NCBI RefSeq assembly: GCF_015350805.1
Contig: NZ_JADKSG010000001.1
Span: 930,001-994,000 of the forward strand
DNA from: Herbiconiux sp. VKM Ac-1786
GTDB lineage: Bacteria; Actinomycetota; Actinomycetes; Actinomycetales; Microbacteriaceae
Reading direction: 5' to 3'
DNA: 64,000 nucleotides
The translations under genes were made by a program, and so were the position numbers. This document shows positions 8,849 to 42,941 of the stretch, piece by piece (position 1 is the first letter of the stretch; every line of letters begins with the position of its first letter). Under the pieces are notes generated by a model. The model saw nothing but the letters and a program-made list of their open reading frames with translations, ran no database searches and was not told the DNA's origin.

Positions 8849-10243
8849 ATGACGCTGCCCGAACTGAGCAACCTGCCCGAGGACTTCATCTGGGGCGTGG
8901 CGACTGCGGCCTACCAGATCGAGGGAGCCGTCGATGCCGACGGTCGTGGCCCGAGCATCTGGGATGTGTTCAGTCACACCCCCGGCCGCACCAAGCACGG
9001 CGACGACGGCGACATCGCTTGCGACCACCGCACTTACTGGCGCAACGACCTCGAGCTCATCGCCTCGCTCGACGTACCGGCCTACCGGCTCTCACTCTCC
9101 TGGCCACGACTGCAGCCGGGCGGCACAGGCCAGCTCAACGCCGTCGCCGTGCGCTGGTACCGCGACCTCCTCGCCACCGCGCGCTCGCTCGGCATCGCCC
9201 CCTACGTGACCCTCTACCACTGGGATCTGCCGCAGGAGCTCGAAGACCAGGGCGGCTGGCCCGAGCGCCGCACCGCCGAACTTTTCGGTGAATACAGCCG
9301 GCTCGTGGCCGACGCCCTCGGCGATCTGGTCGAGGGGTGGATCACCGTGAACGAGGCGTGGTGCGCCTCCTTCCTTGGCTATGGAGCCGGTGTGCATGCC
9401 CCCGGTCGCCATGATCTTCGGGCGGCGGTGGCGGCCGCGCACCACCTGAACCTGGCGCACGGCTACGCGACGGCGGGCATCCGCTCGATCTTCCCGCGGG
9501 CCAGCATCGGCGTGACGAACATCATCGCCGAACTCGTTCCGGCCGACCGCGAGCGCGATGCCGACGCGGTGGCGCGGCTCGATGCCGTGAACCACCAGCT
9601 GTTCCTCGCACCGGTGTACCACGGCGAGTACCCGTCGCTCCTGCGCGACCTGCTCGAGCCCTACGGCTTCGCCGAGCTCGTGCAGCCGGGCGACCTCGAG
9701 GTCATCAGCGCCCCGACCGACTTCGCGGGCGTCAACCACTACCAGCGGGTGATCGTGAGCGACGACCCGACGGTCGAGCTGACGGGTGCCCGTGAGGTGC
9801 CGGCCGGTGTCGCCCGCACCTCCTTCGACTGGTCGATCACTCCGGATGCGCTCACCCGCGTTCTGCAGAACGTCGCCGAGTACACCGACCTGCCGATCTA
9901 CATCACGGAGAACGGTGCGAGCTTCACCGACAACATCCGCCCCGACGGCGCGGTGGAAGACCCGGAGCGTGTCGACTACCTCACCGGCTATCTCGGGGCG
10001 ATCGACGACGCGATCGCCGCCGGCGTCGACGTGCGCGGCTACTTCGCCTGGTCGCTGCTCGACAACTTCGAGTGGGCCGAGGGCTACGAGAAGCGTTTCG
10101 GTCTCGTCTTCGTGGAGTTCGGCTCACAGCGCCGGGTGCCCAAGCGCTCGGCCGCCCACTACACCGCCATCATCCGCTCACATCGTGACGCGATCGAATC
10201 CCGCACAGACTTCGCGCCAGCCCACCAGGGCGCTTCCCTCTGA
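8849..10243 (+). CDS. Glycoside hydrolase family 1 beta-glucosidase
   Basis: A 464-residue cytoplasmic enzyme of normal GH1 length with no signal peptide. The opening FIWGVATAAYQIEGA is the family N-terminal signature. The acid/base glutamate is E169 in TVNEAW, where most members have NEP, and the nucleophile is E354 in YITENGA; the closing WSLLDNFEWAEGY contacts the sugar ring. It hydrolyses beta-linked glucosides or galactosides to monosaccharides. It is the first gene of an operon with an ABC importer and a GH35-type enzyme, so the importer probably brings in the oligosaccharide it splits. Regulation by the divergent TetR protein is likely. Confidence 0.92.
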   Translation: MTLPELSNLPEDFIWGVATAAYQIEGAVDADGRGPSIWDVFSHTPGRTKHGDDGDIACDHRTYWRNDLELIASLDVPAYRLSLSWPRLQPGGTGQLNAVAVRWYRDLLATARSLGIAPYVTLYHWDLPQELEDQGGWPERRTAELFGEYSRLVADALGDLVEGWITVNEAWCASFLGYGAGVHAPGRHDLRAAVAAAHHLNLAHGYATAGIRSIFPRASIGVTNIIAELVPADRERDADAVARLDAVNHQLFLAPVYHGEYPSLLRDLLEPYGFAELVQPGDLEVISAPTDFAGVNHYQRVIVSDDPTVELTGAREVPAGVARTSFDWSITPDALTRVLQNVAEYTDLPIYITENGASFTDNIRPDGAVEDPERVDYLTGYLGAIDDAIAAGVDVRGYFAWSLLDNFEWAEGYEKRFGLVFVEFGSQRRVPKRSAAHYTAIIRSHRDAIESRTDFAPAHQGASL

Positions 10244-34351: not shown

Positions 34352-35188
34352 ATGCCCCAGTACGGCATGTTCGAGATCCGCGCCGTCGACCCCGACGCGC
34401 CGGAGCCGTTGTACGTTCAGATCCGCACCCAGATCGAACAGGCGATCGTGTCGGGTCGGCTCTCCAAAGGCCAGCTCCTGCTGCCCGAGCGCGAGCTGGC
34501 CGACCGCTTCGAGGTGACCCGCATGACCCTGCGTCAGGCGGTCAGCACCCTCGAGATGGCGGGCCTACTCTCCCGGTTGCCGGGCGTCGGCACCTTCGTC
34601 AGTGAACGGATGCGTGTCGAAGACGTGCTCTCGTTCTCCGACAAGGCGAAGGAGCAGGGTCGCACCCCGGGCTCACGTCTCCTCGTCGCCGAGGTGGTGC
34701 CCGGCATCCCGAGCATCAACATGGCGTTGCACCTGCCGCCCCGCGCGGAGCTGGTGCACATCCGCCGGCTGCGCTCCGTGAACGGCCTGCCGGTGCAGGT
34801 CGGCTCCGGCCACCTGGAGTCCGCGCGGTTCCCGGGCATGGTCGGGCACCTTCGGGCGCTTGGCGACGCCTCGTTCTACACGCTGCTCCGCGAGGTCTAC
34901 GGAGTGGTCGTGCACCAGGTCCACGAGACCATCGAAGCCGCGGTCGTCGGGCCCGAACAAGCCCCCCTGCTCGAGTGCGACCCGGGCCTGCCCGCGTTCC
35001 TGCGGGAACTGACAGCCGTCACCGAAGACGGCGAACCGGTCGAGTACGGGCACACCCTCGTCCGTGGCGACCGGTGCAACTACAGCTTCACCCTCACTCA
35101 GCGCAACGGCGCGACGGGTGCTCTCTCCGTTCATTTCGACACCCGGCCGGATGCCCTCTCGCCGAGCGAAGCGCTCACCTTCGTCTGA
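34352..35188 (+). CDS. GntR family regulator with UTRA domain
   Basis: A 278-residue HutC/DasR-type repressor. The winged helix at about residues 15-85 has PLYVQIRTQIEQAI, LLPERELADRFEVTRMTLRQAVSTLEMAGLL and GVGTFV. The UTRA ligand domain follows, with the typical ELVHIRRLRSVNGLPV strand and a Y-S-F-T-L-T-Q end. Such proteins release DNA on binding a phosphosugar such as GlcN6P or GlcNAc6P. Start ATG 34352 has GGAGG just upstream. It precedes the PTS operon by 38 bases and probably controls it and itself through the TGGTCTAGACCA site. Confidence 0.9.
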   Translation: MPQYGMFEIRAVDPDAPEPLYVQIRTQIEQAIVSGRLSKGQLLLPERELADRFEVTRMTLRQAVSTLEMAGLLSRLPGVGTFVSERMRVEDVLSFSDKAKEQGRTPGSRLLVAEVVPGIPSINMALHLPPRAELVHIRRLRSVNGLPVQVGSGHLESARFPGMVGHLRALGDASFYTLLREVYGVVVHQVHETIEAAVVGPEQAPLLECDPGLPAFLRELTAVTEDGEPVEYGHTLVRGDRCNYSFTLTQRNGATGALSVHFDTRPDALSPSEALTFV

Positions 35189-35226
35189 AGAGTGTCGCTG
35201 ACCCGATCCCCCTGGAGGACCAGCCC

Positions 35227-36591
35227 ATGAGCATCGCACATCACCAGCGGTCCCGGTTCGAGGCCCGTCTCGACTCAGTGTCGGCGTGGGTCGAGAAGTA
35301 CATCACCCCGCCCCTCGTGAAACTGGGCAACCAGCGTCACTTCCTGGCCATCCGTGCGGGCCTGACCCGCATCATCCCCATCATCGTGATCGGCGCGGTT
35401 CCACTCATCATCACGAACTTCCCGATCGAGGGGTGGGCCGACGTCATCGCGCCCATCGCGGTGCCGCTGAACACGCTCTATCAGATGACCTTCGGGTTTA
35501 TCGGGCTCTGGGCAGCCCTGAGTATCGGGGCCGAGATGGGGAGGGTGTACAAACTCGACCCCGTCTTGTCGGCCATCATCACGGCGTCGTGCTTCATGCT
35601 CACCGCGGCTCCCGCAAACCTCGAGGAGGGCGTGCTGCCCTTCGCGAACTTCGGGGCGGGAGGGTTATTCACCGCCATCCTGATCGCCGTCGTGGTGGCC
35701 GAGGTCACCCGCTTCATGCGGGATCACAAGATGGTGATCACGATGCCCGCCGGGGTGCCGGCCAACATCGCCGCGAGCTTCTCGGCCCTGTTCCCGTTGG
35801 CCGTGCTGCTGGTGTTCTTCTGGCTCATCCGCTACGTGTTCAGCTTCGATCTGACCGTTGCGATCTCCACCGTGGTGAGCCCGCTGCTGCTGGCGGCCGA
35901 CTCCTGGTACGCCGCGCTCATCGCGATCATCGTCTGCCAGCTGCTCTGGTTCGTCGGCATCCACGGCGGAGCCATCACGTTCTGGGGTGTGCTGTACCCG
36001 TTCCTTCTAGCCAACGTCGCCGCTAACGCCGAGGCCGCCGCAGCCGGCGAGCCCCTCCCACACGTGTTTACCGAGCCGTTCCTGTTCATGTACGGCATGA
36101 TGGGCGGCGTCGGCAGCACCTTGCCGCTCGTGATCTTCTTCCTCGTGCTGGCCAAGTCCGCGCGCCTCAAGCAGGTCGGCAAGCTCAGCATCGGGCCGGC
36201 GCTGTTCAACATCAACGAGCCGGTCACCTTCGGAACGCCGATCGCCTTCAACCCGGTGATGCTACTCCCCTGGGTCTTCGGCACCAGCGCGGTCGGCGTC
36301 GTGATCGGCTACGCCGCCACGTCGTGGGGCTGGGTCTCCGCCGCCTACATCCAGGTGCCGTGGACCACGCCGCCGTTCATCAACGCGTGGCTCGCCACGG
36401 GCGGCGACTGGCGGGCCGTGGTGCTGCAGGCGATCATCTTCGCACTGATGGCCATCGTCTGGTTCATCTTCTTCCGCATCTGGGACGGCCGCCTCCGCGC
36501 CGAGGAGCTGGCGCTGGCCGGCGACGCCCCGACCGCCGCGACCGACGACACCGTCACCGGCCCGACCACCCAAGAGACGGTGAACTCATGA
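35227..36591 (+). CDS. PTS system lactose/cellobiose-type EIIC permease
   Basis: A 454-residue membrane component with about ten hydrophobic segments. FVGIHGG and the signature FNINEPVTFGTPIAFNP (about residues 322-338) are characteristic of the lactose/N,N'-diacetylchitobiose/cellobiose IIC class, where the NEP glutamate binds sugar. It moves and phosphorylates its sugar with phosphate passed from IIB. It is fused to no other domain; IIA and IIB are separate genes just downstream, the first in an ATGA overlap. Start ATG 35227 has GGAGG (35213-35217, in CTGGAGGACC) upstream. Confidence 0.93.
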   Translation: MSIAHHQRSRFEARLDSVSAWVEKYITPPLVKLGNQRHFLAIRAGLTRIIPIIVIGAVPLIITNFPIEGWADVIAPIAVPLNTLYQMTFGFIGLWAALSIGAEMGRVYKLDPVLSAIITASCFMLTAAPANLEEGVLPFANFGAGGLFTAILIAVVVAEVTRFMRDHKMVITMPAGVPANIAASFSALFPLAVLLVFFWLIRYVFSFDLTVAISTVVSPLLLAADSWYAALIAIIVCQLLWFVGIHGGAITFWGVLYPFLLANVAANAEAAAAGEPLPHVFTEPFLFMYGMMGGVGSTLPLVIFFLVLAKSARLKQVGKLSIGPALFNINEPVTFGTPIAFNPVMLLPWVFGTSAVGVVIGYAATSWGWVSAAYIQVPWTTPPFINAWLATGGDWRAVVLQAIIFALMAIVWFIFFRIWDGRLRAEELALAGDAPTAATDDTVTGPTTQETVNS

Positions 36592-36965
36592 CCCCCCACA
36601 CGACTCCACTCGAAGAGATCGTGATGCCGATGATCGCGGCCGCCGGTGAAGGGCGGGCTCTGGTCTTCGAAGCGCTCGACACCGCGCTCGACGGCGACGT
36701 GGCCGGAGCGGAGGCCCTGCTTGCCGAAGCCGATGAGCGCATCCGTGAAGCACACCTCATCCAGTTCCGCGAGCTTATCCGCCCCGAGGCCGCTGGCGAG
36801 AACGTGCCGGTGAAGCTGATCGTGGTGCACGCGATGGACACGCTGATGATCACGATGTCCGAGCGCGACCTCGCCAAGCGATTGATCGACCGGCGCTGGA
36901 GCCGCCGGGTGGGGGCCGCCGACCCCACCGCCTCGCAGACCCCCACCCCCTCCGAAGGAGAATGA
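36588..36965 (+). CDS. PTS system lactose/cellobiose-type EIIA
   Basis: A 125-residue all-helical IIA of the lactose class. The phosphorylated histidine is H81 in VVHAMDTLM, with D84 matching the metal ligand of the trimer; the family usually has HAQDHLM, so the second histidine is replaced by Thr here. It takes phosphate from HPr and gives it to IIB. ATG 36588 overlaps the IIC stop. The C-terminus ends in a Pro/Thr-rich tail. The HPr donor may be the one fused to the HAD protein encoded in the same operon. Confidence 0.88.
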   Translation: MTPHTTPLEEIVMPMIAAAGEGRALVFEALDTALDGDVAGAEALLAEADERIREAHLIQFRELIRPEAAGENVPVKLIVVHAMDTLMITMSERDLAKRLIDRRWSRRVGAADPTASQTPTPSEGE

Positions 36966-36967
36966 CG

Positions 36968-37300
36968 ATGCCCGCCCTCAAAGTCCTGTTCATCTGCGCC
37001 GCCGGCATGTCGTCGAGTCTCATCAAGTCGAAGGTCGAGGCCGAGGCCGCGCGCCGTCAGATCTACCTCGAGCTCGAGGCCGTTCCCGCCGTCATGATCT
37101 CGCGGGCCGACCTCACCGGCGCCGACGTGGTGCTCGTGGCCCCCCAGGTGCGCGGCCAGCTCGCGCAGTTCAAGGAGTGGGCGGCCGAGGAGGGCGCCCC
37201 GATCGAGGCGATCGCCTTCCACCACTACGGCCTCGCGGATGCCGACGGCATCCTCGCGCAGGTCGAGCGGCTGACAACGGCGACGAGCCCGAAGCCATGA
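36968..37300 (+). CDS. PTS system lactose/cellobiose-type EIIB
   Basis: A 110-residue IIB with the phosphocysteine C10 in LFICAAGMSSSL, the P-loop-like motif of this class. An ATG at 36962 is also in frame, but GAAGGAG at 36954-36960 is correctly spaced only for ATG 36968. It relays phosphate from IIA to the sugar held by IIC. Its stop overlaps the start of the first amidohydrolase in an ATGA, tying uptake to the catabolic genes. Confidence 0.92.
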   Translation: MPALKVLFICAAGMSSSLIKSKVEAEAARRQIYLELEAVPAVMISRADLTGADVVLVAPQVRGQLAQFKEWAAEEGAPIEAIAFHHYGLADADGILAQVERLTTATSPKP

Positions 37301-38046
37301 TCGTCGACCTCCACGCGCACCTCGGTGCGCGGAAACGCGCGCGCTATTCGGGCGAGGAGATCCTCCGCGACATGGATGCCGCCGGTGTCGACCACGCCTG
37401 CGTCTTCAGCTTCGTCGAGAGCCTTGACAACCACTATCCGGCGCGCCAGGCGGCCGAGCATCCCGACCGCTTCACGGCGTTCTGCATGGTCGACCCCTGG
37501 AACCCCGACTCGGCCACCGCTATGCGCCGTTGCTTCGAACAGGGCATGAGGGGCGTGAAGTTCCACCCCATGCGCCAGGCCGTCGCCGTCGACCGGGTGG
37601 ACGTGATGGCCCCCTTCCTCGACCTCTGCGAGGAGTTCGGCGCGGTGTTCTTCGCCCACGGCTCGAGCGAGTCGTTCAACAGCCCGGGCAAGTTCGCCCG
37701 GCTGGCGCGGCGCTGGCCGACAGTGCCGATCGTGATCGGTCACAGCGGCGGGCCCTGGGGCCTGCCGGAGGCCATCGACGTGGCAACCGACCATCCGAAC
37801 GTGCGGCTCTCCACCTCGCTGGTGCCGGTTCCGGCACTGCGCCGGATCGTCGACCGGATCGGGCCGGAGCGGTTGCTGCTGGCCTCGGACGTGCCGTTCG
37901 GTTCGTTCGATTTCGAGATCGCGAAGGTGCGGGCGGCCGTGCCGGAGACGGCCGACCTCGTGCTCGGCGGCAACCTCGCCCGCCTCATCGGCCTCACGGC
38001 GGTCGCGGCGGGAGGGGTCGGCGGTCTGGCGGTGGCGACGTCGTGA
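37297..38046 (+). CDS. Amidohydrolase-2 family metal-dependent hydrolase (intact ligand set)
   Basis: A 249-residue TIM-barrel hydrolase of the ACMSD-like branch. The metal motif HxH is H6/H8 in DLHAHLG; further ligands fit H121 (FFAHGSS), H149 (IGHSGG) and D198 (ASDVPFG), and K88/H90 in RGVKFHP lie in the barrel. Members hydrolyse or decarboxylate small ring, amide or lactone compounds in the cytoplasm. Within this operon a deacylation or ring-opening step on the PTS product is plausible. It is followed, with a GTGA overlap, by a paralogue that has lost several of these residues. Confidence 0.82.
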   Translation: MIVDLHAHLGARKRARYSGEEILRDMDAAGVDHACVFSFVESLDNHYPARQAAEHPDRFTAFCMVDPWNPDSATAMRRCFEQGMRGVKFHPMRQAVAVDRVDVMAPFLDLCEEFGAVFFAHGSSESFNSPGKFARLARRWPTVPIVIGHSGGPWGLPEAIDVATDHPNVRLSTSLVPVPALRRIVDRIGPERLLLASDVPFGSFDFEIAKVRAAVPETADLVLGGNLARLIGLTAVAAGGVGGLAVATS

Positions 38047-38765
38047 TCATCGATGCCCACACGCACATCGGCCGGGTGCGCGGTCGCACCTTCACCGCCG
38101 GCGACCTCCTGGGCCGCCTGGACGCAGCCGGCGTCGACCGCGCAGTCGTGTTCAGCTTCGTCGAGAACATCGACAACGACACCGTCGCTGAAGCCGCCCG
38201 CCGGCACCCCGACCGGCTCATCCCTTTCGCGGTCGTGAATCCCTGGCAGGACGACGCGGAGACCGAGTTGCGCCGCCGCCTGGACGACGGTTTCCGCGGC
38301 GTGAAGCTGCATCCGGTGCGACACGGCTACCCGCTGGACCGCCGCGAGCTCACCGATCCCCTCTTCGAGATCGCCGCCGCCGCCCGGGTGCCGGTGCTCT
38401 CCTTCGGCGGTGACGACCTCTTCTCGACCCCCGACCGGTTCACCTCGATGGCCCGCCGGCATCCGTCGGTCGACCTGATCATGGCGCACATGGGCTTCAG
38501 CAACGAGCGCGACGGCGCCCAGCGATCCGCCACCGAGAACCCCAACGTCTACGTCGAGACCAGCGGGGTGCAGAGCGCCCGCTACATCGTCGGGGCCGTG
38601 CAGGCTGCCGGCGCCGAAAAGGTGGTGTTCGGGTCGAACATCCCTCACGAAGACCTGGCCGAGAGCATCGCCATGACCCTCACGGCTGCCGGCCCCGACC
38701 ACGCCGACGCCGTCTTCCACCAGAATCTCAGCCGCCTTCTGGGCGAGAACGGACGACCAGCATGA
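38043..38765 (+). CDS. Amidohydrolase-2 family paralogue with altered metal site
   Basis: A 240-residue protein clearly homologous to its upstream neighbour (shared VFSFVE, NPW/DPW, RGVK-HP, ARRHP). It keeps the first HxH (H5/H7 in DAHTHIG) and H149 (MAHMG), but the third ligand His is Gly (LSFGGDD where the paralogue has FFAHGSS) and the catalytic Asp is N199 (GSNIPHE in place of ASDVPFG). It may use another chemistry, or be the structural partner of the first protein in a heteromer. Start is GTG 38043 in a GTGA overlap. Its stop overlaps the SIS gene. Confidence 0.82.
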   Translation: MIIDAHTHIGRVRGRTFTAGDLLGRLDAAGVDRAVVFSFVENIDNDTVAEAARRHPDRLIPFAVVNPWQDDAETELRRRLDDGFRGVKLHPVRHGYPLDRRELTDPLFEIAAAARVPVLSFGGDDLFSTPDRFTSMARRHPSVDLIMAHMGFSNERDGAQRSATENPNVYVETSGVQSARYIVGAVQAAGAEKVVFGSNIPHEDLAESIAMTLTAAGPDHADAVFHQNLSRLLGENGRPA

Positions 38766-39754
38766 CCCGCCGAGACGACTTCCGCCGTGACGTCGGCGCC
38801 GAGCCGCAGGTGCTCGATCAACTCCTCACTGCCTACGAGGGCACCGACGGTCCGCTGCGGGCGATCCCCGTGATCGGACACCCGGATGCGCCGATCGTGT
38901 TCGCCGGGATGGGCTCGAGTCACAACGCCTCAATGGCCGCCTCGTGGTGGCTGCAGCGGCGCGGCGTCCCGAGCTGGACGAGCTACTCCTCCAAGTTCGC
39001 ACCGACCGCCCCGCCCCCGGCCTCGACGCTGGTCGCGGTCTCCAAGAGCGGCTCGTCCGTCGAGACGCTCGCGGCCGTCGAGCACTTCCGCGCCGCGGGC
39101 GGCGACCGCGTGATCGTCGTGACCAACGAGGAGAACAGCGTGCTCGCCGAGCGCGGCGATCTCGTGCTGCCGATCCTCGCCGGGCGCGAAGGGCCGATCT
39201 CAGCGAAGTCGTACGCCGCCACGGTGGCCGTGCTGCTGCTCCTGACCGGTGCCTGGCTCGACGAACCGGAACTGCGGCCGAGCACGCTGCGGCCGGCGGT
39301 GCGGGCGGGTCTCGACCTGATCGACCGATTCGACCACGTCGGCGACGAGATCGCCGCCGAGCTCTCGGCCACCCCCGTGCTGCACGTGCTCGGTTCCGGC
39401 GCCGGGGTGGCCGGGGCTCGGGAAGGCGCGGTGATCTTCAAGGAGGGCCCGGGCGTACCGGCCGAGGCGCTGACGGCCGCCGAGTGGCTGCACGGCGCCT
39501 ACCGCGCGGTGCGCCCGGGTCGGTTCACGGCCCTGCTCCTCCTCGGCTCGCCGGCCGGGAGCCGTGACGGCGAGGTGCGCGCCAAGGTGGAATCCCTGGG
39601 CGGGGCGGTGGTGGAGATCGGGCCGCTGGTCGTGGGAGATCCGGCGCTCGGCCTCCCCGGGGTGCCGCGCTCGGCACTGCCGCTGGTCGAGGGCCTCGCC
39701 CTCGAGCTCTGCTCGCTGGCGGTGTGGAAGTCAAGGCCGGAGGCGACCTCATGA
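38762..39754 (+). CDS. Double-SIS-domain sugar isomerase/deglycase (GlmS/FrlB-like)
   Basis: A 330-residue protein made of two SIS phosphosugar-binding domains, as in the isomerase half of GlmS and in fructosamine-6-phosphate deglycases. Domain 1 has GMGSSHNAS and SKSGSSVETL phosphate loops (about residues 49-57 and 93-102). Domain 2 has KEGPGVPAEALTAAEWLHG, matching the Glu and His that act in ring opening and deamination. No glutaminase domain is present, so it probably works in the breakdown direction, releasing an amine from a phosphosugar. Overlaps both neighbours by ATGA. Confidence 0.85.
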   Translation: MTRRDDFRRDVGAEPQVLDQLLTAYEGTDGPLRAIPVIGHPDAPIVFAGMGSSHNASMAASWWLQRRGVPSWTSYSSKFAPTAPPPASTLVAVSKSGSSVETLAAVEHFRAAGGDRVIVVTNEENSVLAERGDLVLPILAGREGPISAKSYAATVAVLLLLTGAWLDEPELRPSTLRPAVRAGLDLIDRFDHVGDEIAAELSATPVLHVLGSGAGVAGAREGAVIFKEGPGVPAEALTAAEWLHGAYRAVRPGRFTALLLLGSPAGSRDGEVRAKVESLGGAVVEIGPLVVGDPALGLPGVPRSALPLVEGLALELCSLAVWKSRPEATS

Positions 39755-40725
39755 CGGCGACCCGCGCGGTCGCGCCGCCTCGCCCGCCGACCGCGGTTCT
39801 CCTCGACTTCGATGGCACCCTCGTACTGAGCGAGGAGCGCAACGCCCGCATCTGGGACCACGTGTTCGACCGCATCGGCTACCGGCCGGATGCCACCGAG
39901 CGACACCGCCTGCTCGGGCGCCGCCTGCACGAGATCGCGGTCGATTTCCCTGCCGTCGCCGCGGGCGCGCACACCGTCGCCGACGTCGAGCGGCTCTACC
40001 GCGGCTTCGACGCCGAGCTGCCCCGCCACGACGTGGTGCTCGCGCCCGGCGTGAGGGCGTTCCTGGAGCGCCTGGCCGCGCGAGGCATCCCGGTCGCCGT
40101 GGTTAGCTCGGCGCACTCGCGCACCATCGCCGAGCTGCTCGAGGCGGAGGGCCTGACGGCGCGGGTGACGACCATCGCGGGCGGTGAGAACTCACCGGTG
40201 GGCAAACCCGACCCGGCGCCCTACCGCGAAGCCCTCGGCCGGCTCAGCCTCCCCGCCACCGGCACGGTCGCCGTAGAGGACAGCCCGGTGGGGCTCTCCT
40301 CGGCCCGGGGCGCCGGGGTGTTCGCCGTCGGCATCCTCTCCACCCACCGCCGCGACGAACTGGCGTTCGCCGACCTCGTCGTCGCCTCGTTCGACGAGCT
40401 GTCGCACGGGCTCCTGCCCGGTCCCTTCCCCGACCCGACCGAAAGAGAGACCCTCACGCTCACCAGGACAGCCGTCGTCGGCTCCACCGGCGGGTTGCAC
40501 GCCCGGCCCGCCGCCCAGTTCGTGAAGGCCGTCAAGGCCAGCGGCATCCCGGTCACCATCTCGAAACCGGGCGGCAGCGGGCGGGATGCCGCGAGCATCC
40601 TGACCCTGCTCGCCCTCGACGCGCAGCAGGGCGAAGCCGTCGAGCTGACGGCCGGTGGCGACGACGCCGAGCGGGTGCTCGGCGAGCTCGTCGCCCTCGT
40701 GGAGAGCAACCTCGATGTGGCGTAG
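39751..40725 (+). CDS. HAD-family phosphatase fused to an HPr phosphocarrier domain
   Basis: A 324-residue fusion. Residues about 13-225 are a beta-phosphoglucomutase-type HAD enzyme: motif I D19-x-D21 (LLDFDGTL), motif II S119/S120 (VVSS), motif III K152 (GKPDP), motif IV E176-D177 (VEDSP). Residues about 234-324 are a full HPr: phosphohistidine H250 in GGLHARPAAQF, the regulatory serine position S282 in AASILTLLAL, and QQGEAVELTAGGDDAE near the end. The start ATG 39751 overlaps the SIS stop. HPr normally stands alone or is fused to other PTS parts; joining it to a sugar phosphatase inside a PTS operon suggests a dedicated phosphate donor and possible control of the phosphatase by PTS state (inference). 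Confidence 0.9.
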   Translation: MTATRAVAPPRPPTAVLLDFDGTLVLSEERNARIWDHVFDRIGYRPDATERHRLLGRRLHEIAVDFPAVAAGAHTVADVERLYRGFDAELPRHDVVLAPGVRAFLERLAARGIPVAVVSSAHSRTIAELLEAEGLTARVTTIAGGENSPVGKPDPAPYREALGRLSLPATGTVAVEDSPVGLSSARGAGVFAVGILSTHRRDELAFADLVVASFDELSHGLLPGPFPDPTERETLTLTRTAVVGSTGGLHARPAAQFVKAVKASGIPVTISKPGGSGRDAASILTLLALDAQQGEAVELTAGGDDAERVLGELVALVESNLDVA

Positions 40726-40734
40726 GTGGTCGCG

Positions 40735-41766
40735 ATGAAAGCGCTGGCGAAGGACACCACGGGCCCCGGTCTCGTGCTGACCGACCGACCCGACCCGGTC
40801 GGCGGCCCCTTCGACGTGACGATCGCGGTGCTCCGCACGGGCATCTGCGGCACCGACCTGCACATCGAGAGCTGGGACGACTGGGCCGCGGGGGTCATCC
40901 GGCCACCCCTCATCCCCGGCCACGAGTTCTCGGGACGGGTGGTGGAGGTCGGCGACGCCGTGACCTCCGTGCGGGTGGGTGACCTCGTCTCCGGCGAGGG
41001 TCACATCGTCTGCGGTGTCTGCCGCAATTGCCGAGCCGGTCGCCGTCATCTGTGCGTGCACACCTTGAGCGTCGGGGTGAACCGCGACGGCGCGTTCGCG
41101 CAGTACGTCGCGCTGCCCGAGCAGAACATCTGGGTGCACCCGGCCGATATCGACCTCGATCTTGCCGCCATCTTCGATCCGCTCGGCAACGCCGTGCACA
41201 CCGCACTCTCTTACGAGATGGCGGGCGAGGACGTGCTGATCACCGGCGCCGGGCCGATCGGGCTGATGGCGGCACGCGTGGCCAAGCACGTCGGGTCGCG
41301 CAACGTCGTGATCACCGACGTCAACGCCGAGCGGCTCGCCCTCGCGCGGTCGATGGGGGTGGATGTCGCCGTCGACGTCTCCTCGGACTCCGTCGCCGAT
41401 GCCCAGCAGACGCTCGGGATGCGCGAGGGCTTCGATGTGGGGCTCGAGATCAGCGGTCGCCCCTCGGCCCTGGTGGAGATGCTCGAAAACATGAACCACG
41501 GCGGCAAGGTGGCGCTGCTCGGCCTTCCGACGGAGCGCTTCGACATCGACTGGGCGAGCGTGGTGGGGCGCATGATCACGATCAAGGGCATCTACGGGCG
41601 CCAGATGTTCGAGACCTGGTACCTCATGGCCGCCATGCTGCACTCCGGTCTCGACGTGCAGCCTGTCATCACCGACCGCCTTCCGGCCGCGGACTGGGCG
41701 GAGGGCTTCGACATCGCCCGCCGCGGCGCCGGCGGCAAGGTCGTTCTCGATTGGAGCACCCTGTGA
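40735..41766 (+). CDS. tdh: L-threonine 3-dehydrogenase
   Basis: A 343-residue zinc MDR enzyme of the same length as bacterial Tdh. The catalytic zinc site is ICGTDLHI with PGHEFSG; the structural zinc cysteines are in [15 protein letters not shown]; the NAD loop is [12 protein letters not shown]. It oxidises L-threonine to 2-amino-3-ketobutyrate. ATG 40735 (MKALAK) fits the family; TAGGTGG lies upstream, and the GTG at 40726 is less likely. The next gene is the partner ligase with a GTGA overlap, which supports the threonine role over another alcohol. Confidence 0.88.
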
Positions 41767-42941
41767 TCAACGACAGCACCCTCGACGAACTCGACGCGAC
41801 TCTCGACGAAATCTGCGACGCCGGGCTCTGGAAGGTCGAGAACCCGCTCGACTCGCCGCAGGGCGGGCACATCGTCTCGCACGGCGAGCAACTGGTGAAT
41901 TTCTGCTCGAACAACTACCTCGGGCTCGCCGACCACTCGGCGGTGGTCGCGGCCGCCAAGCACTCCCTCGACCGCTGGGGCTTCGGCATGGCCAGCGTGC
42001 GCTTCATCAGCGGCACACAGTCGCAGCACCTGGACCTGGAGGCGGCGCTCACCGATTTCCTGGGCACCGAGGCCTCCGTGCTCTTCCCCTCGTGCTTCGA
42101 CGCCAACGGCGCCGTCTTCGAGACGCTGCTCGACGACCGCGACGCGGTGATCTCGGACGAGCTGAACCACGCCTCCATCATCGACGGCATCCGGTTGTCG
42201 AAGGCGGCGCGGCATCGTTACCACAACCGCGACATGGCCGACCTCGAACTGAAGCTCCAGGCCACGGCCGGGGCCCGACGCCGCCTGATCGTGACCGACG
42301 GCGTGTTCTCGATGGACGGCTATGTCGCCCCGCTCGACGAGATCGTCGCGCTGGCGCGCCGCTATGACGCGATGGTGATGGTGGACGACTCGCACGCGGC
42401 CGGGTTCGTCGGGCGGCGGGGAGCCGGCACACCGGAGCTGTTCGGGGTGACCGATGACGTCGACATCCTCACCGGGACCCTCGGCAAGGCGCTCGGCGGC
42501 GCCTCCGGCGGGTATGTCTCTGGCCGCTCCCCCGTCGTGGAGCTGCTGCGGCAACGCGGGCGGCCCTATCTCTTCTCGAACTCCGTACCCCCGGTGGTGG
42601 TCGCCGGGAGCCTCGCGGCCCTGGAGATCGTGACCTCTCCCGACGGCGACGCCCGACGGGCGCAGCTGGCGGCCAACGCGGCGCGGTTGCGCGAGGGCCT
42701 CACCGGCCTGGGCTTCGAATTGCTGCCGGGCGCCCACCCCATCATCCCGGTGATGATCCCGGAGGCCCCGGAAGCGGCCTCGCTCGCGACCGCACTCCGG
42801 CGGCAGGGTGTCGCGGTGACGGCCTTCGTCTACCCCGTCGTACCGCTCGGCCGCTCGCGCATCCGGGTGCAGGTGTCGGCGGCACATACGGAGGAGGACA
42901 TCGCGATCTGCCTGGGGGCGTTCGCGGGCGCTCTGGTCTGA
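41763..42941 (+). CDS. kbl: Glycine C-acetyltransferase (2-amino-3-ketobutyrate CoA ligase)
   Basis: A 392-residue PLP enzyme of the alpha-oxoamine synthase family. [33 protein letters not shown] and the PLP lysine K242 in [14 protein letters not shown] are diagnostic. It splits 2-amino-3-ketobutyrate with CoA into glycine and acetyl-CoA, completing threonine breakdown started by Tdh. GTG 41763 overlaps the tdh stop. It is the last gene of the PTS operon; why threonine degradation is tied to a sugar PTS is the key question here. Confidence 0.92.

Follow-up and report, generated by a model that had tools for sequence, protein, structure and literature searches.

An unusual, probably catabolic phosphotransferase operon of Herbiconiux sp. 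VKM Ac-1786 with an intact and an impaired amidohydrolase

The window analysed here is a stretch of 64,000 nucleotides from Herbiconiux sp. VKM Ac-1786 (contig NZ_JADKSG010000001.1, positions 930,001 to 994,000), and the system in question is a row of genes for a phosphotransferase system (PTS), two amidohydrolases (AH1 and AH2), a SIS protein, a HAD-HPr protein, Tdh and Kbl. The ten same-strand genes recognised in an earlier note on the sequence were confirmed to be intact, filling positions 34352 to 42941 (+), and the coupling that the note described is tight, with four-base overlaps at seven of the nine junctions (in order, the gaps are +38, -4, -4, -4, -4, -4, -4, +9 and -4). The longest gap, 38 bases, separates GntR from IIC; the gap from HAD-HPr to Tdh is 9 bases, or 0 if Tdh begins at an alternative GTG (40726) immediately after the HAD-HPr stop. 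Families were assigned to the window proteins by Pfam and NCBIfam profile scores, as follows:

34352..35188, + strand: GntR/UTRA transcriptional regulator (Pfam GntR 65.6 bits, UTRA 102.5 bits)
35227..36591, + strand: PTS IIC, lactose/cellobiose family (TIGR00410 295.8 bits, cut-off 236)
36588..36965, + strand: PTS IIA, lactose type (PF02255 90.4 bits; VVHAMD)
36962..37300, + strand: PTS IIB, lactose/cellobiose type (PF02302 47.3 bits; Cys in FICAAGMSS)
37297..38046, + strand: AH1, Amidohydro_2 (PF04909 105.2 bits; H6, H8, K88, H121, H149, D198)
38043..38765, + strand: AH2, Amidohydro_2 paralogue of AH1 (PF04909 124.2 bits; F at H121, N at D198)
38762..39754, + strand: SIS protein, NagB-II/GlmS-like (one Pfam SIS domain; NagB-II 69.6 bits, cut-off 430)
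39751..40725, + strand: HAD phosphatase fused to an HPr domain with GLHARPAA (HAD_2 87.1 bits; PTS-HPr 68.8 bits, residues 238-318)
40735..41766 (GTG start 40726 possible), + strand: Tdh, L-threonine 3-dehydrogenase (PRK05396 529.9 bits, cut-off 380; 5kia 449 bits)
41763..42941, + strand: Kbl, glycine C-acetyltransferase or 2-amino-3-ketobutyrate CoA ligase (PRK06939 559 bits, cut-off 460; TIGR01822 524.8 bits, cut-off 493; 3tqx, 1fc4)

These genes form a real and unusual PTS operon, most likely a catabolic one. Uptake by a PTS, as the earlier note proposed, is borne out by family scores that recognise the lactose-family IIC, IIA and IIB alike. IIA and IIB exceed the Pfam gathering scores but do not reach the NCBIfam subfamily models (IIA, TIGR00823, 83.5 against 136.95; IIB, TIGR00853, 64 against 110), and IIC falls below the sugar-specific equivalog cut-offs (cellobiose, 295.8 against 434.45; lactose, 184.9 against 614.4). 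The IIA His in VVHAMD, which is presumably the phosphorylation site, can be found by eye in the translations, as can the IIB Cys, the HPr His and the HAD DxD motif, which are assumed here to have their customary meanings. The window IIC is the sole match of its kind in its own genome at E<=1e-25, and one EI and two further HPr domains are encoded in that genome, so that the PTS can in principle be driven. The HPr domain of the HAD protein is a feature missing from the earlier note; among the 114 plasmid records that matched this HAD-HPr fusion, none covers 80% of its length.

The metal site of the Amidohydro_2 family is made up of the residues HxH, K, H, H and D. Both amidohydrolases of the earlier note do belong to this family, but the note overlooked that they are paralogues (35-37% identity) and that one of them is impaired: the set is complete in AH1 on a TIM-barrel fold (all six checked residues are present), whereas AH2 has H, H, K, F, H and N at the same six columns and so keeps four of them, with H121 and D198 lost. 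The AlphaFold model of AH1 (pLDDT 94.1 from a 33-row alignment) has as its best Foldseek match 3cjp (the uncharacterised CAC3332, TMq 0.76), followed by dihydroxybenzoate, ACMSD and IDCase decarboxylases, the LigJ hydratase, LigY and pyrone hydrolases; the 50 best matches include several "putative amidohydrolases" of no known function, and none of their titles names an amidase. Because its named fold neighbours are decarboxylases, hydratases, LigY and pyrone hydrolases with no amidase among them, ring-opening or C-C chemistry is more likely for the modelled AH1 than plain amide hydrolysis, the case for which is weak. AH1 shares the Amidohydro_2 fold of ACMSD, LigI, LigJ, LigY and gamma-resorcylate decarboxylase, but it has no more than 20% identity to enzymes of this type in the Foldseek rows shown, is shorter (249 residues) than the matched chains (262-380) and, unlike those enzymes, is paired with an impaired paralogue.

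Such pairing recurs in other genomes. Loci retrieved with AH2 or with AH1 and AH2 together as query (L050-L064 and L077-L160) form a non-random sample that includes near-duplicates, in which domains were scored as intact if all six residues were present, D or E being accepted at 198. The 143 AH domains in these loci comprise 33 tandem pairs and 77 unpaired domains; every pair has one member with all six residues, and the partner has at most three in 29 of the 33, while the unpaired domains have six residues in 60 cases, five in 12 and fewer in 5. The window pair fits this recurring pattern of an intact and a degenerate member, AH2 being milder, with four of six residues, than the 29 degenerate partners. 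Trees contain matching pair lineages, such as an intact clade and a degenerate clade that both run over L082, L084, L087, L088, L096 and L101, and other tandem loci of this kind include L093, L120, L147, L050 and L057. By record title, the pairs come from Proteobacteria, Clostridiales, Actinomycetota, Chloroflexi, Armatimonadetes and Candidatus Bathyarchaeota. No description of such tandem pairs or of a comparable PTS operon was found in the titles and abstract openings listed by searches of mostly non-subscription literature.

The most transferable result, as read from these sequences, is the pair of an intact and a degenerate AH together with its repeated association with sugar phosphorylation. 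When 356 genomes of the phylum, the own one among them, were searched with an AH profile, 85 had a match at E<=1e-22, and 12 loci from 11 genomes (L207-L218), picked for a high score or two matches, were examined. Three of them (L213, L214 and L215, perhaps from Coriobacteriia) carry a GntR-type regulator, an AH, mannose-family PTS genes, a second AH, an IF-2B-type protein and BtpA. Pfam was used to check the regulator, second AH, IIC, IF-2B and BtpA of L213 and the regulator, both AHs, IIC, IF-2B and BtpA of L214; the other PTS subunits of these two loci and the non-AH genes of L215 were assigned by eye. The first AH holds all six residues in all three loci (with M in L213 at H90, a position not among the six). 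Searching plasmids with the L214 AH matched 71 records, one of them strongly (50%), the Klebsiella plasmid pC708_1. The locus on this plasmid, L220 (CP067510.1, 54500-73234), has an AH, a hypothetical protein in the place of IIA, IIB, IIC, IID, a second AH, an ADP-ribosylglycohydrolase and a GntR regulator, and blastn of its first 3.9 kb against the E. coli genome collection gave no match. In the second AHs of L213-L215 and L220, H121 is lost in four of four and D198 in three of four. These operons resemble that of the window in having a GntR-family regulator, a PTS, a pair of AHs with the second one impaired, and a further enzyme, but their PTS is of the mannose family rather than the lactose family, the position of the SIS protein is taken by an IF-2B homologue and BtpA (L213-L215) or by the ADP-ribosylglycohydrolase (L220), no Tdh or Kbl was seen in them, and their AHs are of another clade.

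Elsewhere, a SIS_2 protein and the beginning of an FGGY kinase come after an AH pair (L209, where the second AH has C at H121), and pairs lie with Amidohydro_1 (NagA-type) and glucosamine-isomerase-family genes (L078 and L085). No PTS was seen in the frames read of L207, L208, L210, L211 and L217, five of the 12 loci; L212, L216 and L218 were covered by tblastn with the window proteins, which other PTS types could escape. No window-type SIS, Tdh or Kbl was detected by that tblastn in any of L207-L218.

The best relatives of the SIS protein in the PDB are NagB-II/GlmS-type chains, in agreement with the kind of enzyme first proposed. The earlier note described it as a double-SIS protein; Pfam recognises one SIS domain (residues 45-161), but the NagB-II and GlmS profiles span residues 45-247 or thereabouts, so that a second domain is likely. 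The protein has 330 residues and no glutaminase domain was found in it; its scores are below the cut-offs of GlmS (TIGR01135, 65.2 bits against 418.05) and of the NagB-II deaminase equivalog (NF046059, 69.6 against 430). It keeps E228, E235 (equated here, by assumption, with FraB E214) and H244, the last two being candidates for the Glu/His pair of FrlB/FraB/GfrF-type 6-phospho-ketosamine deglycases, but a His at the H244 position is common to all seven SIS proteins compared. The tail Lys of GlmS has a functional role. The window protein ends in AVWKSRPEATS and lacks the tail PRNLAKSVTVE, with which six of the seven GlmS-length rows (at least 600 residues) end, the seventh showing no end. A related Lys-bearing tail is present in the SIS relatives of L008 and L014, but PRNLAKSVTVE is also absent from those of L002, L003, L006, L007, L010 and L049, which tells against a simple reading of its loss. 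The absence of the tail suggests that a standard glucosamine-6-phosphate enzyme is less likely, and a putative amine-adduct deglycase or isomerase more likely.

The preferred reading, which is given an even chance of being correct, is that of a GntR-controlled PTS catabolic operon for a sugar conjugate, in which an AH1/AH2 heteromer would open the phosphorylated import product and the SIS protein would process it further. It draws on the tight packing, the family identities, the intact AH1 beside the impaired AH2 and the like layouts of L213-L215 and L220, and also on the AH pairs near SIS and FGGY kinase genes (L209) or NagA/NagB-type genes (L078, L085) and the EI and HPr domains of the genome. 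First, the lactose-family PTS would import and phosphorylate a sugar, with the HPr domain of the HAD protein possibly feeding or sensing this PTS. Second, AH1, predicted to be metal-dependent, would open the phosphorylated product as a putative heteromer with AH2, the target being more likely a lactone, another ring or a C-C bond than a plain amide, to judge from the fold neighbours. Should AH2 contribute residues to the active site of AH1, PDB 4ifk would be a precedent, since its title names arginines 51 and 239* of a neighbouring subunit as essential in a zinc-dependent decarboxylase. Third, the SIS protein may isomerise or deglycate a 6-phospho amino-sugar or ketosamine, which would then enter glycolysis, and fourth, the HAD domain might strip phosphate from a by-product. 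Fifth, Tdh and Kbl, if they have the activities of their families, would convert threonine, whether released from the substrate or otherwise in surplus, to glycine and acetyl-CoA.

Several observations weigh against this reading. The complete ten-gene set was found only in this genome. In four of the 33 tandem pairs (L083, L085, L086 and L058) both members have all six residues, L058 being possibly mis-paired as a degenerate domain adjoins, and AH2 may be active despite its two substitutions. AH1 and AH2 are sisters in the trees, with support of 89 and 75 (below the 95 that the tool stars), and stand apart from the AHs that are linked to a PTS in L213-L215 and L220; a tree in which AH2 joins the second AHs of L213-L215 is worse by 31 log units but is not rejected (p-AU 0.09, the group being post hoc). 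As the two are sisters, though with support below 95, the window pair probably but not certainly arose separately from other pairs; because the window AHs do not group with the PTS-linked AHs, the layout common to these operons is, on these trees, either convergent or very old.

The survey of the ten-gene set on which the earlier note would have relied gave no second copy in the genomes and plasmids sampled; these searches covered samples of genomes, in which some of the first-look candidates were scored (five per genome for SIS in the order, up to nine for AH2 in the class, up to seven for AH in the phylum). None was found with AH2 in 296 genomes of the class, with AH2, SIS and IIC in plasmids, with SIS peptide patterns in a contig collection, or with two patterns for the AH pair among the matches listed from that collection. 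No close relative of the SIS protein was found in 40 relatives (own included; the best other has 33% identity and 74.7 bits, compared with 708.5 for self) or among genus-mates (best 33%), and a search of 396 genomes of the order (own included) gave two others within E<=1e-18, with 34-35% identity. A lactose-family IIC is present at E<=1e-25 in 8 of 395 other genomes of the order, at E<=1e-30 in 1 of 397 other genomes of the family (31% identity), and in none of the 10 genus-mates examined. Of 98 other relatives, 14 have Tdh at E<=1e-70, but none of the 15 genus-mates does, and Tdh looks, with other parts of the operon, like a newcomer in this genus. The joint absence of several parts from the genus-mates checked fits their arrival as one block. 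The LLM gene downstream of the operon has only 56-59% homologues in the 15 genus-mates. The GC content and codon-position GC of the operon fall within the values seen in nine other window frames, however, and its composition is not foreign.

A somewhat unlikely alternative is that Tdh and Kbl merely share the transcript, and that the PTS, AHs and SIS protein use an unrelated substrate, for example an amino-sugar or aldonolactone disaccharide, with a 6-phospho-beta-glucosidase supplied in trans. Tdh and Kbl are what the earlier note called them, by family score (PRK05396; PRK06939 and TIGR01822), with Tdh narrowly below TIGR00692 (432.1 against 458.35). Both enzymes of the threonine-to-glycine pathway are thus present at high score, but here, unlike in the usual pathway, they close a PTS operon as its last two genes. 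Eight of 15 other tdh places, in seven genomes, were examined, with neighbouring frames read for five of the eight. By tblastn with the ten window proteins, Kbl adjoins tdh at seven of the eight loci, and no window-type PTS, AH or SIS lies near tdh at any of them (other PTS families may be present); on this evidence tdh-kbl is an independent unit in those relatives, as this alternative would have it. This lack of linkage is part of what the earlier note said would refute its scheme, although in those genomes the operon is missing altogether rather than rearranged.

The absence of GH4, GH1, NagA and NagB that the earlier note pointed out holds for the operon, but not genome-wide for GH1, of which there are five strong members; GH4 had no match in the own genome. 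The window GH1 (8849-10243, about 24 kb upstream of the operon) is of the plain beta-glucosidase type (NFEW motif, by eye). Another, at C1:821396-822874 (within L231:9376-13079), obtains its best scores from models of 6-phospho-beta-glucosidase subfamilies without reaching the cut-offs (553.3 against 639), and on the strength of this resemblance a 6-phospho-glycosidase may be available in trans. A pyrone hydrolase (4d8l, which is taken to be LigI) among the AH1 fold neighbours and the AH pairs near NagA/NagB-type genes also favour this alternative. On the other hand, the Tdh start is only 0-9 bases behind the HAD-HPr stop, and the GH1 in question has its own adjoining gene, resembling a BglF-type PTS by eye.

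The pathway of the earlier note, in which a threonine-sugar conjugate (fructosyl- or glycosyl-threonine) is taken up and deglycated by the SIS protein, leaving threonine for Tdh and Kbl, is judged unlikely. To our knowledge, the fra and frl deglycation systems do not have an AH pair, and it is not evident what two AHs would do in a simple Amadori pathway. Release of threonine from the PTS substrate is unsupported, tdh being unlinked to window-type PTS, AH and SIS at the eight loci of the seven relatives, and there is no other example of the ten-gene set. A modified nucleoside, threonylcarbamoyl-adenosine, was also considered as the source of threonine, and none of the papers listed for it bore on the question. 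In favour of the conjugate, Tdh and Kbl pass family cut-offs within the same packed row as the PTS, Tdh is missing from all 15 genus-mates, and a SIS protein that keeps its Glu and His residues without the GlmS tail would fit a pre-formed amine adduct. There is also a precedent for a PTS with deglycases in gfrABCDEF of Salmonella, for fructoselysine and glucoselysine (PMC12675984). The Gfr system imports and phosphorylates a sugar-amine conjugate, from which deglycases release the amino acid and hexose 6-phosphate, as proposed here; however, its PTS is of the mannose family, four of its six genes encode PTS parts and the other two encode deglycases, which leaves no amidohydrolase, Tdh, Kbl or HAD-HPr, all of which are present in the window operon. 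The fra system of Salmonella for fructose-asparagine, the FraB E214A variant of which is termed catalytically inactive (PMC10100877, PMC4941530), and the frl system of Bacillus (PMC12632257) share the deglycase step, but they have a kinase (FraD) or an ABC importer in place of the PTS. By sequence, the window SIS protein is nearest to NagB-II/GlmS-type chains.

It is similarly improbable that each AH is an active enzyme in its own right, the two working one after the other and the AH2 substitutions being tolerated: AH2 keeps HxH, K88 and H149, and both members are intact in the four pairs already named, one possibly mis-paired, but the partner is degenerate in the other 29 and H121 is also lost in the second AHs of four other PTS-linked operons.

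A broader proposal can be advanced only speculatively, with little confidence: tandem Amidohydro_2 proteins may be a widespread two-subunit enzyme, with a catalytic and a degenerate barrel, that has repeatedly been joined to a PTS or kinase and a sugar-phosphate enzyme, and the branch in the window might degrade a phosphorylated sugar-threonine conjugate to a glycolytic sugar phosphate, glycine and acetyl-CoA. If true, this would mean a further PTS route, one for a sugar conjugate, and provide a functional handle on AH pairs with a degenerate member. If the degenerate partners are needed for activity, some proteins annotated singly as "amidohydrolase family proteins" would be only half of an enzyme, a possible reason for failed assays; the idea makes the AH pair directly testable.

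A few other observations concern the AHs and their surroundings. The AH of a Niallia plasmid (L077), to which no second AH is annotated as adjoining, has oxidoreductases, sugar-phosphate isomerase/epimerases and a DUF6379 protein among its neighbours. Near AH pairs, a protein of about 385 residues recurs (L083:8056-9219, which has no Pfam match, with relatives in L078 and L085), and L083 also carries a NagA-like match. The single AHs nearest to AH1 and AH2 by tree path, in L051 (8627-9376), L052 and L056, have YxN or YxT in place of HxH, and the neighbour of the L051 AH resembles a transporter substrate-binding protein by eye.

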